The notes under the pieces are model-generated. The model did not search any database and had not been told where the DNA came from. It saw nothing but the letters and a program-made list of their open reading frames with translations. This document shows positions 9,759-38,694 of a DNA stretch of 38,694 bases, piece by piece (position 1 is the first letter of the stretch; each line of letters opens with the position of its first letter). A program made the translations under genes and the position numbers. Source of the stretch: Bacteroidota bacterium (GTDB lineage: Bacteria; Bacteroidota; Bacteroidia; UKL13-3); assembly GCA_947453415.1 (NCBI GenBank), contig CANGGG010000027.1, positions 1 through 38,694 of the forward strand. Reading direction: 5' to 3'.

Positions 9759-9856
9759 CTTGAGAAATGGGAGTTGATAGATGAGAAATGAGAGTTGGGA
9801 TAAGGGAGTTGAGAGACGTGAGTTGGGAATTGGGAATTGGGAAATGAGAGTTGGGA
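9759..9856 (-). repeat. Heptamer minisatellite, locus A
   Basis: Fourteen consecutive 7-bp units in perfect phase; read on the minus strand they are variants of TCTCATC, TCCCAAC, TCTCAAC and TCCCAAT. The same family forms the larger array at 29647-29877 on the plus strand and a short one at 9973-10000. Occupies the intergenic gap upstream of thrS. Confidence 0.85.
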
Positions 9857-9866
9857 ATATACAATT

Positions 9867-9961
9867 TGTCATCCTGAGCGGAGTCGAAGGAGGCAATGGG
9901 CAATGAGCAAAATTTCACTCAATCGTCATACTGGAAACATCTCCTTGCCATATAAACAATA
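9867..9961 (-). repeat. TCATCCTGAG module plus degenerate dispersed element
   Basis: 9869-9890 carries TCATCCTGAGCGGAGTCGAAGG, of a kind common between genes in Bacteroidota. The next stretch, read on the minus strand, contains TGTTTATA, CAGTATGACGATTGA and TTTTGCTCATTGCC, matching parts of the element copy at 29888-29995. The central hairpin of that element is missing here. The gap 9682-10095 holds no gene that I can support. Confidence 0.6.
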
Positions 9962-9972
9962 TTGAATTTGGA

Positions 9973-10000
9973 AATGGGAGATGAGAGTTGGGAAATGGAA
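9973..10000 (-). repeat. Short heptamer repeat block
   Basis: Four further 7-bp units (AATGGGA, GATGAGA, GTTGGGA, AATGGAA on the plus strand), same family and orientation as 9759-9856 but separated from it by the dispersed element. Confidence 0.65.
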
Positions 10001-27501: not shown

Positions 27502-28407
27502 TCAAATCTTGTGTCCTCTTAAAAACTCCTCCACTCCTATTCGTTTTTTTCCTTCTAGTTGAATTTGCAGTAAATGAACATAACCATTTTGGCAAGCTAC
27601 TTTTAAAAATGTTTTGTTATCGCTTATCATTTTACCAATTGGCTCATCATGGTTTAATAGCTCCACATTTGCCTCAAATACTTTTAATATTTTACCATCA
27701 AAATGAGTAAATGCAGCCGGATAAGGACTCAATCCTCTGATTAAATTATAAATATTTTTAGCGCTATTATCCCAATTAATCAAACAGGTTTCCTTAAATA
27801 TTTTAGGAGCCATTTTGTTGTTATCATTACCTTGTGGCTTGCCTTTGGTGTTTCCATTTTTTATTAATTCCAACGATTTCAAAACCGTTTCAGCACCAAT
27901 ATTCATGAGCAAATCGTGCAATTCACCAGCATTTATAGTTGGTGTAATTTCCATTTCTTGAGTGAGCAAAACATCGCCAGTATCTATTTCATGTTTCAGA
28001 AAAAAAGTACTCACCCCAGTTTTGGTTTCTCCATTGATGATTGCCCAATTAATTGGCGCAGCACCTCTATAATCTGGCAACAATGAAGCATGTAAATTCA
28101 ATGTTCCAAATTGGGGCATTTCCCAAACAATTTGTGGCAACATTCTAAAAGCTATGACCACTTGTAATTCGGCATTTAAAGCTTGTAATTCTGCTATAAA
28201 TTCAGGATCTTTTAACTTAATAGGTTGTAATACTTTGATGTTATTTTCAACAGCATATTTTTTTACTGCACTTTGTTGCAATTGCATTCCACGGCCAGCT
28301 TGTTTGTCGGGCATGGTAACCACTGCCACCACTTCATGTCCAGCTTTTACGATGGCATCCAACGATGGGACAGAAAAATCAGGTGTTCCTAAAAATATTA
28401 TTCTCAT
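27502..28407 (-). CDS. fmt: Methionyl-tRNA formyltransferase
   Basis: 301 residues. N-terminal formyltransferase domain opens MRIIFLGTPDFSVPSL and has the catalytic triad N104, H106 (NLHASLLPDYRGAAPINWAI) and D142 (IDTGDVL). The spacing equals E. coli N106/H108/D144. The C-terminal tRNA-binding domain is present (GLSPYPAAFTHFDGKILKV). It formylates initiator Met-tRNA. Its ATG overlaps the lpxB stop (TAATG), so the two are translationally coupled. Confidence 0.97.
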   Translation of the reverse strand: MRIIFLGTPDFSVPSLDAIVKAGHEVVAVVTMPDKQAGRGMQLQQSAVKKYAVENNIKVLQPIKLKDPEFIAELQALNAELQVVIAFRMLPQIVWEMPQFGTLNLHASLLPDYRGAAPINWAIINGETKTGVSTFFLKHEIDTGDVLLTQEMEITPTINAGELHDLLMNIGAETVLKSLELIKNGNTKGKPQGNDNNKMAPKIFKETCLINWDNSAKNIYNLIRGLSPYPAAFTHFDGKILKVFEANVELLNHDEPIGKMISDNKTFLKVACQNGYVHLLQIQLEGKKRIGVEEFLRGHKI

Positions 28408-29516
28408 TATTTTTTGACTAAATCAATAATTATTTGCGCAGCATTATTACTAGCTCCTTGCTTGTTTAAAATGGCTTGTAAGTTTTTATATTCTTCCATT
28501 AAATTGGCGTTTTTATTGCCGTTTGGCAATATGGCTTCAAACTCCTGTTTTAAGTTTGCTAAGGTGTAATCATGTTGAATTAATTCTTTCAATAACTCCT
28601 TATCCAAATTAATATTTACCAATGAAACATACTTTATTTTTACAAATTGCTTGGCTAAAAAATATGAAATAGTACTGCCCACATAAGCACAAACTTGCGG
28701 TACATTGAATAAGGCGGTTTCTAAAGTTGCGGTTCCACTACAAACAATGGCAGCCTTTGCCAAATGCAATACTTCGTATGTTTTATTGTAAATAATTTTA
28801 GTATTAGTTCCAATAAATGTTTGGTAAAAATCAGGTTTGATACTTGGTGCGGCACAAATTACAAACTCGTATTGAGGATATGCTTGCGCTAGCTTCATCA
28901 TATTAGGAAGCATGGTTTTTATTTCTTGTTTCCTGCTTCCTGGCAATAAAGCAATGATGTCTTTTTTTGAATCAATGTGGTTTGCTTCGCAAAATGTAGC
29001 ATCGGGTTTAAATGCATTTACCTCGTCTAATAAAGGATTGCCAACATAAGAAGCTTTTACTTTCCACTTTTTAAAATATTCTACTTCAAACGGAAAAATA
29101 AGCAATAACTCATCTACATATTTTTCTAGTTTCTTAGCTCTTTTTTCATTCCAAGCCCAAACCTTTGGAGCAATATAATACACTACTTTATAACCTTTTT
29201 GCTTAGCAAACTGAGCTATTCTCAAATTAAATCCAGCATAATCAATGAGTATGACTACATCGGGTTGGTAGGCATCAATTTGTTTTTTGCAAACAGCAAT
29301 AAAACCTAAAATTGTTCTTATTTTAAGTAGCACTTCCACAAAACCCATGATAGCAGTTTGCCTAAAATGCATCAATAAACCTTTGGCTTGCGCATGCATT
29401 AAATCGCCACCCCAAAACTGAAATTCAGCTTGCTCATCCTTTTGTTGAATGGCTTTCATTAAATTGGCACCGTGCAAATCGCCACTTGCTTCTCCGGCAA
29501 TAATAAAATATTTCAT
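28407..29516 (-). CDS. lpxB: Lipid-A-disaccharide synthase
   Basis: 369 residues. Opens MKYFIIAGEASGDLHGANLM, the LpxB signature, with FWGGDLMHAQ, MGFVEVL, IDYAGFNLRIA, YYIAPKVWAWNEKR and ALLPGSRKQEI in the expected order. It joins UDP-diacylglucosamine and lipid X during lipid A synthesis on the inner face of the inner membrane. Its stop overlaps the fmt ATG. The 535 bases upstream are repeats. Confidence 0.97.
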   Translation of the reverse strand: MKYFIIAGEASGDLHGANLMKAIQQKDEQAEFQFWGGDLMHAQAKGLLMHFRQTAIMGFVEVLLKIRTILGFIAVCKKQIDAYQPDVVILIDYAGFNLRIAQFAKQKGYKVVYYIAPKVWAWNEKRAKKLEKYVDELLLIFPFEVEYFKKWKVKASYVGNPLLDEVNAFKPDATFCEANHIDSKKDIIALLPGSRKQEIKTMLPNMMKLAQAYPQYEFVICAAPSIKPDFYQTFIGTNTKIIYNKTYEVLHLAKAAIVCSGTATLETALFNVPQVCAYVGSTISYFLAKQFVKIKYVSLVNINLDKELLKELIQHDYTLANLKQEFEAILPNGNKNANLMEEYKNLQAILNKQGASNNAAQIIIDLVKK

Positions 29517-29604
29517 TGGTGCGAAAGTAATGTAGAATTGTTAAATTGTTATATTGTTGATTGGTTAATAAGTTGATTTGGATTTGTGTTTTGGGAAAAT
29601 TCGT

Positions 29605-29643
29605 TTTGCCCACTGCCTCCCTCGGCAAGCTCAGGATGACAAC
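29605..29643 (+). repeat. TCATCCTGAG-family intergenic module
   Basis: Read on the minus strand, GTCATCCTGAGCTTGCCGAG followed by GGAGGCAGTGGG. It is a variant of the copy at 9869-9890. In both places the heptamer array begins within a few bases on the TCATCC side. Confidence 0.7.
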
Positions 29644-29646
29644 ATT

Positions 29647-29877
29647 TCCCAACTCTCATCTCTCATCTCTCATCTCTCATCTCTCATCTCTCATCTCCCA
29701 TCTCTCATCTCCCATCTCTCAACTCTCATCTCCCATCTCTCAACTCTCATCTCCCATCTCTCAACTCTCATCTCTCATCTCTCAACTCTCATCTCTCATC
29801 TCTCATCTCCCATCTCTCATTTCTCAACCCTCATCTCCCATTTATCATCTCCCAGTGCTAATTTCTCACTTCATAAT
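29647..29877 (+). repeat. Heptamer minisatellite, locus B (33 units)
   Basis: Units of seven bases, consensus TCTCATC with TCCCATC and TCTCAAC variants, keep perfect phase for 25 units (29647-29821) and then decay over about 8 more. Because 7 is not a multiple of 3, every 21 bases the reading phase repeats, so two long frames stay open; these are not genes. The same units occur at 9759-9856 and 9973-10000 on the other strand. Confidence 0.92.
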
Positions 29878-29887
29878 TAAAACTTAT

Positions 29888-29995
29888 ATCCATGTTGTTT
29901 ATAAGGAAAGAAGACTGTGTCAGTTTACCAACTGATGCTTGCAGCATGACGATTGATGGAGGTTTTGCTCATTGCCTCTCGATATATCGGGAGAT
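29888..29995 (+). repeat. Dispersed hairpin element, copy 3
   Basis: Contains TCCATGTTGTTTATAAGGAA, then GACTGTGTCAGTTTACCAAC and TGATGCTTGCAGCATGACGA, then TTTTGCTCATTGCC and a TCTCGATATATCGGGA palindrome (29977-29992). It directly follows the heptamer array. Confidence 0.88.
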
Positions 29996-30051: not shown

Positions 30052-30867
30052 TTACTTTAATTTTTGTATTTGTTTGTTATTTATTAATGATTTCATTTGG
30101 GTAATAGCTATAATATTTAGTTGTTGTAAGCGTTGTGATTGCATAATTCCTTGGTGAATAAGTACCGCATTTATGCTTTCCATATTTGATAACACAACTA
30201 ATTGTTCAATACTTGCAGTATCTCTAATGTTGCCTTCTGCTTTCGGATTTGCTTCTCTCCATTCTTTAGCTGTAATTCCAAACAATGCCATATTAAGCAT
30301 ATCCGCCTCATTGGCATACAGAAAGTTTATTTTTTCTTTTGAAAGTGATGCTGGAATTAAATTTTCTTTGATCGCATCAGTGTGAATTTGGTAATTTACT
30401 TTGGTTAAAGTACGTTGTAAATTCCATTCTAATTTAAATCGGTTGCTTTCATCAGCCTTAAGGCGTTGAAATTCCCTTACCAATAAAAGTTGAAATTTGG
30501 GGCTTATCCACATGCCAAAATGAAAGGCAATATCTTTGTTAGCATACGTTCCGCCATATCTTCCTGCCGTTGCTATCAATCCTATAGCACCTGTTTGTTC
30601 AATCCATTGCTTTACGGAAAGCACAAAATTATTACTTCCTGCCTTATTTTTAATTGTACCGAATTCGGTATAATTAAAAGCTGGATTATATAAGTTTTCC
30701 CATTCGCCTAAATATTCAATGGTGCTTTTTAAACTTAACCATTTAATAATAATTGCTTCTTGCATTTGGCTTTTTGCCATATCAGTAAGTGAAATAAAAT
30801 CATCAATTTTATTTGAAATGATACTTATTTCTTTCCCATCAATATTTATTATTTTACTTTTTTTCAT
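30052..30867 (-). CDS. KilA-N domain protein
   Basis: 271 residues. The N-terminal region fits a KilA-N DNA-binding fold: FISLTDMAKSQMQEAIIIKW, LYNPAFNYTEFGTIKNKAG, VLSVKQWIEQTGAIGLIATA and YANKDIAFHFGMWISPKFQL. The C-terminal region is helical (ANEADMLNMALFGITAKEW). KilA-N proteins are found in phages and mobile islands; role here unknown. No other phage genes are nearby. It is an isolated gene flanked by repeat-rich spacers. Confidence 0.88.
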   Translation of the reverse strand: MKKSKIINIDGKEISIISNKIDDFISLTDMAKSQMQEAIIIKWLSLKSTIEYLGEWENLYNPAFNYTEFGTIKNKAGSNNFVLSVKQWIEQTGAIGLIATAGRYGGTYANKDIAFHFGMWISPKFQLLLVREFQRLKADESNRFKLEWNLQRTLTKVNYQIHTDAIKENLIPASLSKEKINFLYANEADMLNMALFGITAKEWREANPKAEGNIRDTASIEQLVVLSNMESINAVLIHQGIMQSQRLQQLNIIAITQMKSLINNKQIQKLK

Positions 30868-33920: not shown

Positions 33921-36293
33921 TTAAAATTTTCTAATGGCACGAACCCTGTATAAACTTGTTTTGGTTAATCCTGTGGATGTTCCGAGACTTCCATTGCTAA
34001 AATCCAAAGCCCTTGCATTTGTGCTTGACACCTCTGAGGAACTCCAATATGGAACAGTTGAAAATGTTGTAACAGTTGCAACTCTATTTAAGTATAACTG
34101 GTTTAACTCATTTAAAGATGGTAAAAACCAATCTGTATAGCCGCCTCCGTTATGTGCCCTTGCTAAGCCTGCAGCATAAGAGGTTCCAGTACCTTGATTA
34201 AGTGTAATATTGATTGAGTTTATGTCTCCATATCCAATAGTGGTTACGGTATTATTAATTAACACAGAGGATACACTCCAACGTATTCCAGTCGTGGTTG
34301 TTTGATCAGCTGTCGCACAAATCAAACCGTGCTGCACATTGGCGTCATAGCCATAATCAGATGCTTGCAAAATATAGAATACCTTTCCGCCTTGAAATGC
34401 ATCACCAATTATTACATTAGTAGTAAAAGTAACTTCATTGCCATAGGCTGTTCCAACAGAATTTGTGGCATAAGCTCGAACGTAATACTTGGTACCTCGG
34501 GCTAGTGGAGAAAAAAGTGTTGAAAATGAGCCAGTACCACTCCCAACAGAAGTACTATTTAATGTGTATACAGGATTTGGGCTAGTACTCCAACAAATAC
34601 CTTTAATAGTTACTGCTGAACCGCCATCACTGGTAACATTGCCTCCACAACCTGCTGATGTCGTTGTTATATTTGTAACTGCATTTGTAGTTAGTATGGG
34701 TAAATCTGCGCCAGTAGTGCTGAATTGCACTGCAATACCATAACCAGTTCCAACTGAGTTGGTGGCATAAGCACGAACATAATAGGTGGCACCAGCTGTA
34801 AGGCCAGTTAATGAACTTGTAAAATTCCCTGTTCCAGTTCCATCTGATGTTTTAGTATTTGAAATGGTAGGATTTGGAGTGGTACTCCAACAAACACCTT
34901 TAGCTGTTATAGTTGAACCACCAGTACTTGAAATAGTGCCACCACTACTCGCAGTGAATTTTGTGATATTGGAAATGGATTGTGTAGTTAAAACAGGAAC
35001 ACTTGCAGCACCCGTGGCGAATTGTTCTGAATTGCCATAAACAGTTCCAACAGAATTGGTGGCATAAGCACGAACATAATAGGTAACACCAGCTGTAAGG
35101 CCTGTTAAATTACTTGTAAAACTCCCTGTTCCAGTTCCATCTGTTGTTTTAGAATTTGAAATGGTAGGATTTGTACTTGTACTCCAACAAACACCACGTG
35201 TAGTTACTGCTGCGCCTCCATCACTCGTAATATTACCACCACTTGTTGCTGATGTTTGTGTTATGTTAGAAATGACAGACGTTGATGATAATGTGGGTAA
35301 ATTTGGAGGTAGTGTTTTAAATATAATTTCATTGCCATAACTAGTTCCAACCTTATTGCTGGCATATGCACGAACATAATAGGTAACATCAATCGTAAGG
35401 CCTGATAAATTACTTATAAAACTCCCCGTTCCACTACCATTTGTTGTTATAGAATTTAAAATAGTAGGATTTGAACTTGTGCTCCAGCAAATACCACGCG
35501 CTGTTACCGTTGCACCTCCATCACTAGAAATAGTACCTCCACTTATAGCCGCTGTTTGTGATATGCTAGACATAGCAGATGTAGTTATAATAGGTTTAGT
35601 TGCCGATGTGGTGGTAAATGAAATGGTATTTCCATAGCTTGTTCCTGAAGAATTGGTTGCATAGGCGCGAGCATAATATAATACGTTTTCTGTTAAGTTT
35701 ATAATTTTACTTGAGAATATTCCACTGCCAACGCTATCGCTTGTTTTGTTATTGCTAATGGTTGGATCAATGCTTGTGTTCCAGCAAACACCACGCGCAG
35801 TTATTTCAGAACCGCCATCATTTGTTATGTTCCCTCCACTTACAGCACTAGCTGCAGTTAATTCAGATACATCGGCAGTTGTTAATTGTGCTAAACCTTT
35901 TGTTGTAAATGATATTGTTTTTCCATAACCAGTACCTTCAATATTAGTAGCATAAGCACGAACATAATATTTGGTATTGCTTGTTAATGTATTAATTTCA
36001 CTACTAAATTGACCAATATCAAGAATACCATCAGTTGTAATATTATCATCTATTGTAGGGTTATCATTACTACCCCAGCAAACTCCACTTTTGGTTACTG
36101 GAGTGCCACCGTTGCTAGTAATATCGCCTGAAACAGTTGCTGTCGTTTCTGTGAAAGTTAATAATTCATTTGTAATTGATGGAACACTCCATGGAGAAGC
36201 AATTGAATTTTTCTTACAACTTTGAATGAATAGCAACGACATGATTGCTATTATAATTGATGACCCAATCCAAATTTTTCTTTTAGTTATCAT
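33921..36293 (-). CDS. Surface lipoprotein with six GVCW repeats and DUF1566-like domain
   Basis: 790 residues. Lipobox Cys26 (IMSLLFIQSCKK). Six FN3-like repeats of about 95-100 residues, each with a GVCW or GICW motif (one GVCWNTS), PTI and YYVRAYATN or close variants. A DUF1566/Lcl-like C-terminal domain (GGKVFYILQASDYG, HGLICATADQ, NGGGYTDWFLPSLNEL, YRVRAIRKF) follows. Larger paralogue of the preceding gene; the difference is three extra repeats. Repeat number may vary by recombination between similar 285-base units. Ligand unknown. Confidence 0.9.
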   Translation of the reverse strand: MITKRKIWIGSSIIIAIMSLLFIQSCKKNSIASPWSVPSITNELLTFTETTATVSGDITSNGGTPVTKSGVCWGSNDNPTIDDNITTDGILDIGQFSSEINTLTSNTKYYVRAYATNIEGTGYGKTISFTTKGLAQLTTADVSELTAASAVSGGNITNDGGSEITARGVCWNTSIDPTISNNKTSDSVGSGIFSSKIINLTENVLYYARAYATNSSGTSYGNTISFTTTSATKPIITTSAMSSISQTAAISGGTISSDGGATVTARGICWSTSSNPTILNSITTNGSGTGSFISNLSGLTIDVTYYVRAYASNKVGTSYGNEIIFKTLPPNLPTLSSTSVISNITQTSATSGGNITSDGGAAVTTRGVCWSTSTNPTISNSKTTDGTGTGSFTSNLTGLTAGVTYYVRAYATNSVGTVYGNSEQFATGAASVPVLTTQSISNITKFTASSGGTISSTGGSTITAKGVCWSTTPNPTISNTKTSDGTGTGNFTSSLTGLTAGATYYVRAYATNSVGTGYGIAVQFSTTGADLPILTTNAVTNITTTSAGCGGNVTSDGGSAVTIKGICWSTSPNPVYTLNSTSVGSGTGSFSTLFSPLARGTKYYVRAYATNSVGTAYGNEVTFTTNVIIGDAFQGGKVFYILQASDYGYDANVQHGLICATADQTTTTGIRWSVSSVLINNTVTTIGYGDINSINITLNQGTGTSYAAGLARAHNGGGYTDWFLPSLNELNQLYLNRVATVTTFSTVPYWSSSEVSSTNARALDFSNGSLGTSTGLTKTSLYRVRAIRKF

Positions 36294-36690: not shown

Positions 36691-38694
36691 TTATTCTTTC
36701 ACAAATTTAATTCTGCTTGTTTCACCCTCTTTTTGAATGCTTAAAATGTATGCACCGGTTTTAAGTTCATTCACTAAAACAGTATGTTCGTTAGAAACAT
36801 TTGTTACCGTTTCTTCCAACATTTTTCTTCCAAGCATATCGGTAATAATGATGTGCGCACCTTTCAGTTTTTGATTGGTGCTAATGATTAATTCATTGTT
36901 GGCAGGGTTAGGATAAACAGAAATATTATTTGAATTATTTATTTCGTTTATAATAGTTACTCCATCTTGTTTTATATTCAAAAATTTATTGATAGTACCT
37001 GCTGTTATAATTACATCTGCACTTCTTGCTCCACCGGTATTTGCTTGAATATTTAAGCTTAATATTTGATTTCCTGTTCCACTAATAGGTGTTAGCGTAA
37101 ACCAACTTGCAGGACTAGTTATCACCCAACTTCTATTACTTTGTAATTGAATGATTGTACTCGCTTGATTTAAATTAACCTTCACAGAATCTTTATCTAA
37201 CGATAATTGATCTGCAATTACTGGAGTACTATCTTGTGAAATATTAATGGTTTGAACTAAATTACCAGCAGTAAAAGTTATGCTAGCATATCTTGAAGTT
37301 GATGCTGTATTTGCTGTTACCGTTGCTGTTAAATTATCATTTCCATTGCCTGAATTTTTGCTTAAAGTTAACCATGTTTGATTTGAACTTACATTCCAAT
37401 TGGTGTTACTAAATAATGTTAATAGTTTATTTCCAACAATGTTTGTAAAATTCAAACTTGTAGGTGTAACATTTAAAGTAAAATTACTTATAGTTATATT
37501 TAAATAAATAGTATCTCCTTTACAGCCACTAGCATTTGTTTCTAAAACTTTAACTATTCCATTTCCCGGTGAATTATTCCATAAAATGGAAATTGAATTT
37601 GAGGACCCCCCACTTATAATACTTCCACTATTTACTATCCACATGTAATTTGAACCATTTGTATTTGTAACAGAATAATTTTGGGTAGTGTTTGGAAGCA
37701 CATTATTGATTCCATTTATAATGCTAGTACTTGGTATTGGATTTACAGTTACTGTTGTATTGGATGATGTAGATGAACAAGCAGCAGCATTTGATACAAT
37801 AACTGCATAATTTCCTGAATTTGTTGCTGTATAATTTGCAGCTGTTGAAGTACTAATATTTGTGCCATTTAATGTCCATTGGTAAGTTAATCCGGTTCCT
37901 GTATTTGCATTTAAAACCACACTACCTCCTTGGCAAAATGTTGTTGTGGTTGCAGGGGTAATTGATGCAGTTGGAATTGCATTGACTGTTACTGTTGTAT
38001 TTGCTGATGTGGCTGAACAAGCAGCAGCACTTGATACAATAACTGCATAATTTCCTGAAGTTGTTGCTGTATATGAAGCGGCTGTTGAACTGCTAATATT
38101 TGTTCCATTTAATGTCCATTGGTAGCTTAAACCAGTTCCTGTATTTGCATTTAAAACTACATTGCCTCCTTGGCAAAATGTTGTTGCTGTTGCAGGGGTT
38201 ATGATTGCCGTTGGAATTGGATTGACAGTTACTGTTGTATTGGATGATGTAGCTGAACAAGCAGCAGCATTTGATACAATAACTGCATAATTTCCTGAAT
38301 TTGTTACTGTATATGAAGCAGCTGTTGAACCGCTAAGATTTGTTCCATTTAATGTCCATTGGTAAGTTAAACCGGTTCCTGTATTTGCATTTAAAACTAC
38401 ATTAGCTCCTTGGCAAAATGTAGTTGTTGTTGCAGGTGTAATTATTGCTGTTGGAATTGCATTTACTGTTACTGTTGTGGCAGTTGATGTCACTGAACAA
38501 GCAGCAGCACTTGACACGATAACTGCATAATTTCCTGAAGTTGTTGCTGTATAAGAAGCTGCCGTTGATCCACTAATGTTTGTTCCATTTAAAGTCCATT
38601 GATAAGTTAATCCGGTTCCTGTATTTGCATTTAAAACCACATTGCCTCCTTGGCAAAATGTTGTTGCTGTTGCAGGGGTAATTGTTGCTGTTGG
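36691..38694 (-). CDS. T9SS cargo protein with Ig-like repeats, BACON-like domains and type A sorting domain; N-terminus cut by window edge
   Basis: 667 codons visible; the frame stays open through 38694, so the N-terminus lies to the right. From the edge: at least four near-identical 80-residue Ig-like repeats (TTFCQGGNVVLNANTGTGL, YQWTLNGTNI, SGNYAVIVS), then a region SNYMWIVNSGSIISGG, then two BACON-like units (TNWNVSSNQTWLTL and RSWVITSPASWFTL), and a C-terminal T9SS type A sorting domain (ISVYPNPANNELIIST, ITDMLGRKM, LKTGAYILSI, ending RIKFVKE). It would be exported through Sec, then by T9SS to the surface. Repeats may bind glycans or proteins. Confidence 0.93.
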   Translation of the reverse strand, partial: PTATITPATATTFCQGGNVVLNANTGTGLTYQWTLNGTNISGSTAASYTATTSGNYAVIVSSAAACSVTSTATTVTVNAIPTAIITPATTTTFCQGANVVLNANTGTGLTYQWTLNGTNLSGSTAASYTVTNSGNYAVIVSNAAACSATSSNTTVTVNPIPTAIITPATATTFCQGGNVVLNANTGTGLSYQWTLNGTNISSSTAASYTATTSGNYAVIVSSAAACSATSANTTVTVNAIPTASITPATTTTFCQGGSVVLNANTGTGLTYQWTLNGTNISTSTAANYTATNSGNYAVIVSNAAACSSTSSNTTVTVNPIPSTSIINGINNVLPNTTQNYSVTNTNGSNYMWIVNSGSIISGGSSNSISILWNNSPGNGIVKVLETNASGCKGDTIYLNITISNFTLNVTPTSLNFTNIVGNKLLTLFSNTNWNVSSNQTWLTLSKNSGNGNDNLTATVTANTASTSRYASITFTAGNLVQTINISQDSTPVIADQLSLDKDSVKVNLNQASTIIQLQSNRSWVITSPASWFTLTPISGTGNQILSLNIQANTGGARSADVIITAGTINKFLNIKQDGVTIINEINNSNNISVYPNPANNELIISTNQKLKGAHIIITDMLGRKMLEETVTNVSNEHTVLVNELKTGAYILSIQKEGETSRIKFVKE
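37731..38690 (-). repeat. Four tandem 240-bp coding repeats
   Basis: Repeat boundaries marked by TTGG(A/T)ATTG at 37731, 37971, 38211 and 38451, exactly 240 bases (80 codons) apart. They code for the Ig-like units of the T9SS cargo protein. The array probably continues past the window edge. Confidence 0.93.

Follow-up and report, generated by a model that had tools for sequence, protein, structure and literature searches.

The window, by which we mean the whole stretch of 38,694 nucleotides that was analysed, contains a long array of 7-bp units in an intergenic region, upstream of lpxB and downstream of a gene with a KilA-N domain, both on the minus strand (Table 1). TRF reported a period of 7 with 28.4 copies, 0% indels and a score of 293 at 29653-29851. 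Scoring of the 30 core units likewise showed a constant register in unbroken tandem phase, which confirmed what the initial annotation had said about the phase. Its count of 33 units holds for the full block, the extent of which was taken from the left-hand element to the right flank. Within the core, TCTCATC accounts for 14 of the 30 units, and TCCCATC and TCTCAAC for five each. The variants were said to be patterned, and indeed TCTCAAC-TCTCATC-TCCCATC recurs as a 21-bp super-unit. The centre of the array is homogeneous and its edges are degenerate. The smaller copy in opposite orientation that had also been noticed proved to comprise two arrays.

Table 1. Position of the heptamer arrays, the associated element and the adjacent genes in the window.
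Feature	Position	Strand	Remarks
Second array, TCYCAWY family	9759..9856	-	14 units
Dispersed-element core GCTCAGGATGACA	9867..9879	-	11 bp from second array, co-oriented
Third short array, TCYCAWY family	9966..10000	-	5 units; shares its intergenic region with second array
lpxB, lipid-A-disaccharide synthase	28407..29516	-	PF02684; start 130 bp from window array
Left-hand partner	29606..29641	+	two GCCYAYT-type units, then dispersed element ending GCTCAGGATGACA
Full block	29642..29873	+	232 bp = 33 units + 1 bp, degenerate edge units included
Core heptamer array	29647..29856	+	30 in-phase units, consensus TCYCAWY, 27/30 units match
KilA-N domain gene	30052..30867	-	PF04383; stop 174 bp past 29877

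The 2.89-Mb genome of the window (G000) was searched with TCTCATCTCTCATC, allowing at most 2 mismatches. This gave 96 matches against 5 for the reversed pattern, which indicates that the array family is not due to chance. The TCYCAWY family comprises 21 loci on 17 contigs, on both strands, and is therefore not limited to the two loci noticed at first. The arrays lie mostly between genes and overlap real-looking ORFs in a few loci only. With a slightly looser pattern of four consecutive units and at most 1 mismatch, the family was detected in nine of the 10 genomes of the genus, G003 being the exception. Four exact consecutive units were present in 8/10 genomes of the genus, in 12/64 of the family and in 7/296 of a phylum sample of which G000 is part. 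The near relatives are metagenome-assembled Bacteroidetes, some of which bear the label Chitinophaga pinensis. The reversed control pattern matched repeatedly in some genomes of the class (e.g. G183, G215 and G231), which implies that other heptamer families of opposite letter order occur there. In a viral collection, four exact units were found in 73 stretches; 55 of these had exactly four units, 45 were built of a single word and one contained the partner element. The collection gives no sign of a phage as the vehicle, and this candidate was abandoned.

At the site of the window array the sister genome G007, whose LpxB is 99% identical, has a block of 99 bp (14 units + 1 bp). The window block is longer by exactly 19 units (133 bp), and seven units at the right edge are common to both. 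Array length is thus not identical in close relatives (33 versus 14 units). Different words occupy this site in other genomes. After a left flank AAAATTCGTTTT matching that of the window, G009 has 14 repeats of GCCCATT, which stop a few bases short of the contig end, and G001 has 15 of GCCTATT; the LpxB of either genome is about 80% identical. Both arrays (L022 in G009 and L023 in G001) are perfect, lie upstream of lpxB and are orthologous to the left edge of the window array. G005 has TTGCTTA and TTGCTCA units at this site, and in G008 no such array was found there. At the second site (window 9759), ATGGACG, ATAGACG and ATTGGCA units start from the same boundary in G007 and ATAGACG units are present in G004; in G005 and G008 the dispersed element is present there in another version, and G003 lacks any repeat. 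The array L006 differs from that of G007 by two 7-bp insertions and one 3-bp deletion, and at L011 G008 lacks the entire repeat-rich block, about 300 bp long. The indels of 3 bp at L006 and of 22 bp at L001 are not multiples of the unit and speak against change by whole units alone. Two homologous arrays of 32 units, L014 on contig C97 and L016 on contig C102 of G000, have flanks that are 92% identical (291/315) and contain the same unit types in a different order. This pair may represent two strains in the assembly, or a duplication; the reordering reflects rapid internal rearrangement and was counted in favour of change in place.

Slippage and unequal exchange leave characteristic traces in minisatellites: differences of whole units, edges that are degenerate around a homogeneous centre, and super-units. 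From the presence of all of these we infer that one of the two processes acts here. The family is dispersed and mostly intergenic, differs by whole units at a given site and shows different words at the same site in related species. We consider it probable, as the best reading, that the arrays form a family of degenerate heptanucleotide minisatellites which expand at their sites and have been dispersed in part together with a REP-like element. The arrays would lengthen and shorten where they stand, either through slippage during replication or through unequal exchange; the step would be a whole unit or a small group of units (14-, 21- and 42-bp super-units). Point-mutated units could then take over the array, so that the word changes over time. 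In part, new sites could be seeded by the short REP-like element, which often accompanies an array and which a Y1 (RAYT-type) transposase might mobilize. The remaining sites would be seeded by routes other than the partner element, as co-spread fits about half of the arrays. The array DNA itself is probably a tolerated spacer for which no function need be assumed. The initial annotation had suggested active spread or expansion by a mechanism that it could not name. The mechanism can be named and is of a known kind. The 21 loci in the genome support a dispersed family, and the unit numbers that differ between near relatives support expansion in place. Active spread is less sure: the presence or absence of arrays differs between relatives, and no transfer event was caught. 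Loss of mismatch repair was rejected as the cause, as each of the 10 genomes of the genus has MutS-type genes, with one match in G005 and two in each of the others. Loops of 7 nt formed by slippage are generally regarded as exceeding the size that MutS repair can handle.

The left edge of the partner of the window array coincides with the place where relatives carry GCCCATT or GCCTATT arrays. The short element, ending GCTCASSATGACA, occurs in 28 copies in G000 and in none in G001, G003 and G009. Eleven of the 28 copies lie at most 150 bp from a TCYCAWY array; all 11 are co-oriented with it, and in nine of these pairs the array is found on the 3' side of the element. The probability of this proximity by chance was 2e-10 against non-coding DNA, a rough value that assumes 10.6% of the genome to be non-coding. 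Besides, four copies flank a Y1-transposase (RAYT-type) gene at L087:468-2476 (G000:C16), one of them inverted and on the opposite side from the other three. These associations would be expected if the arrays were passengers or parts of a mobile REP-like composite (TTGCYYA units, element and TCYCAWY units) moved by the Y1 transposase, with slippage editing the copies afterwards. We regard such a composite as possible but doubtful. An element is present within 150 bp of 12 of the 23 array blocks, but 11 blocks are without one, and none of the 17 other Y1-gene loci (of 18 fetched) has the element. G001 and G009 contain arrays although they lack the element, and G003 has Y1 transposases and no arrays; the transposase is therefore neither necessary nor sufficient. 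The fold of the element is weak (best z -1.29), and the label 'REP-like' is itself an inference.

The position of the arrays relative to stop codons was scored in seven sampled genomes. In 18 of the 20 array-stop-codon pairs separated by at most 60 nt the purine-rich strand was sense, and after orthologous sites (e.g. L006/L105/L115) had been merged by hand the proportion was about 16/18 (p 0.001). This agrees with the account by Rehm et al. (2015, PMC4692102) of the GGGNATC-type repeats of Xanthomonas and Nostoc, which lie shortly after stop codons with the G-rich strand as the sense strand. The arrays might thus be functional, the purine-rich RNA strand acting in 3' ends after the stops, with termination, RNA stability, and protein or G-quadruplex binding as proposed roles, and with the TC-CA frame under selection. 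However, the 18/20 count left out ORFs that run through arrays, and 15 of 16 such rows are oppositely oriented; addition of four excluded opposite-orientation ORFs lowered the bias to 16/22 (p 0.05). Moreover, purine-sense units such as GATGAGA contain TGA, which could alone produce the bias, so that the orientation may only mean that the arrays still stop translation. Four C-tracts fit for a quadruplex were found in 5/55 arrays only, and the G-quadruplex was rejected as the basis. In the purine strand of the window array, 147 of the 210 bases fold to 0 kcal/mol. Finally, G007 retains lpxB with 14 degenerate units. A function of the arrays is on balance unlikely.

The unit itself is restricted. 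Positions were counted in fixed phase in 94 units from the three longest arrays, two of which are homologous, because a count over 418 units was partly circular, its arrays having been picked by consensus. Positions 1, 2, 4 and 5 were identical in 93, 93, 94 and 94 of the 94 units. Position 3 was T or C (54/40), position 6 was T, A, C or G (53/28/12/1) and position 7 was C, T or A (49/31/14). That only three of the seven positions vary would fit selection on the frame of a functional array. Variation at the same three positions at several loci is not what one would predict from neutral slippage and random mutation, and this counts against the minisatellite explanation that we prefer.

A tendency to 7-bp periodicity is not confined to this word. 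In an unselected sample of G000, 20 stretches plus the window (438,694 bases, of which 46,486 non-coding), the self-match of non-coding DNA at lag 7 was 0.338 versus 0.325 at lag 6 and 0.317 at lag 8, with further peaks at lags 14 and 21. Coding DNA of the same sample showed no lag-7 excess. The coding mask counted the window array as an ORF in this lag-rate analysis, and the array was masked for the count of exact runs. Nine exact lag-7 runs were found in 44 kb of non-coding DNA of G000 against 0.2 in shuffles, and five in 27 kb of G002. In G003, where neither a TCYCAWY array nor a lag-7 peak was detected, the number was zero in a non-coding sample of 12.6 kb, which is small and makes this weak evidence against the nine in 44 kb; G003 was therefore rejected as a clean heptamer-free control. 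Among non-coding arrays the TRF period was a multiple of 7 in 22/43 cases in G000, 15/23 in G002 and 2/6 in G003; for coding arrays of G000 it was 12/72, the window array being one of these 12. The sample and the window contain nine distinct heptamer words in tandems of nearly three units or more. Together with the general periodicity this implies that TCYCAWY is one word among many. A lineage-specific process that remakes 7-bp tandems whatever the word, in which the TC-CA frame is kept, three positions are free and words can be replaced at one site, could be envisaged, but we think it improbable. If it existed, the machinery rather than the sequence would set the length of the unit, for example through the footprint of the polymerase or a step of strand exchange. 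The flanks of the arrays L004, L007, L009 and L013 are dense with other short repeats in the same intergenic regions (TTCATAC/TTCATCA units, GGGTTAGCGGGTTACGAG-type repeats and CTTCTGGCAACTAGC-type 14-mers), most of which have periods of 7 or near 7.

The constant 7-bp register, the restricted set of words and the different words at one site could also suggest that a dedicated enzyme, telomerase-like or a defence reverse transcriptase, writes the heptamers from an RNA template. A linked enzyme or RNA, which the initial annotation had thought worth looking for, did not emerge. No match to reverse transcriptase (PF00078) was obtained in G000 and the domain was matched in only two of the 10 genus genomes; Rfam gave no match in the window. 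An all-against-all comparison of ORFs at most 3 kb from arrays yielded three cross-locus pairs only, one of which is the homologous C97/C102 pair, and no recurrent family. What comes closest to a vehicle is the dispersed element with its copies around one Y1-transposase gene. Writing by such an enzyme is very improbable and was rejected, no such gene being matched in the genome. Least credible of all, and likewise rejected, is a coding origin, with ORF 29561-29935 or 29578-29880 as a repeat protein: a 124-aa open frame does cross the window array, but it starts at TTG, TCYCAWY units are stop-free on that strand so that any such array stays open, and the 133-bp difference to G007, which is not a multiple of 3, breaks the frame.

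Heptamer excess has been published for Xanthomonas, Nostoc, Calothrix, Beggiatoaceae and some Bacteroidetes (PMC4692102, PMC4679880). The GGGNATC-type repeats of Xanthomonas and Nostoc, in the account of Rehm et al. (2015; PMC4692102), resemble the present family in their 7-bp unit with degenerate positions, in their dispersed and mostly intergenic location, and in a unit number that varies at the same site between relatives. Unlike these repeats, TCYCAWY arrays have mostly broken G-tracts (TCTCATC), few are quadruplex-capable, and the host belongs to the Bacteroidota. The TAACTGA repeats of Beggiatoaceae, Cyanobacteria and some Bacteroidetes (MacGregor 2015, PMC4679880) are, as described there, also dispersed intergenic heptamers; close strains differ mostly by indels in 7-nt steps, relatives have repeat-free regions, and in some Bacteroidetes long arrays are mixed with other heptamers. 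The word is different, however: the unit here is TCYCAWY, and the family does not match TAACTGA. In addition, the Beggiatoa copies are reported mostly just upstream of start codons, whereas TCYCAWY arrays are degenerate and often near stop codons. The long simple sequence repeats of Mrazek et al. (2007), compared by description only, share the 7-bp excess, for which polymerase slippage was proposed; the TCYCAWY family goes unmentioned in the descriptions of that work given in PMC4692102 and PMC4679880. Copy-number variation and named repeat classes at one site are also described for the degenerate heptanucleotide repeats of the Nostoc tRNA-Leu intron (Costa et al. 2002, via PMC3488679), but these lie within a structured intron hairpin and the TCYCAWY arrays are intergenic, with no fold. 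The partner element is reminiscent of REP elements with their RAYT (TnpA_REP) transposases, as it is short and dispersed and its copies enclose a Y1-transposase gene in inverted arrangement; REP-associated transposase subclasses occur in Bacteroidetes (PMC6006769). In contrast to the REP/RAYT system as presented there, the partner element is weakly palindromic and arrays occur without it. In the open-licence literature searched, no description of the TCYCAWY family or of its lineage was found. The kind to which it belongs, the heptamer repeats of Xanthomonas, Nostoc and Beggiatoaceae, was already known.

In many bacteria, heptamers have been described as the most frequent type of long simple repeat, and their length is without an established explanation. 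The genus offers a good natural system for the question why the unit is seven, with near relatives that have different words at the same sites and with G003 apparently free of arrays. The arrays also break draft assemblies, and they could serve as strain markers. The window contains two further tandem repeats, each within a long minus-strand ORF: one of 300 bp (2.7 copies) at 34738-35543 and one of 240 bp (4.0 copies) at 37731-38694, which continues up to the window end. Both may represent repeated domains of surface proteins.
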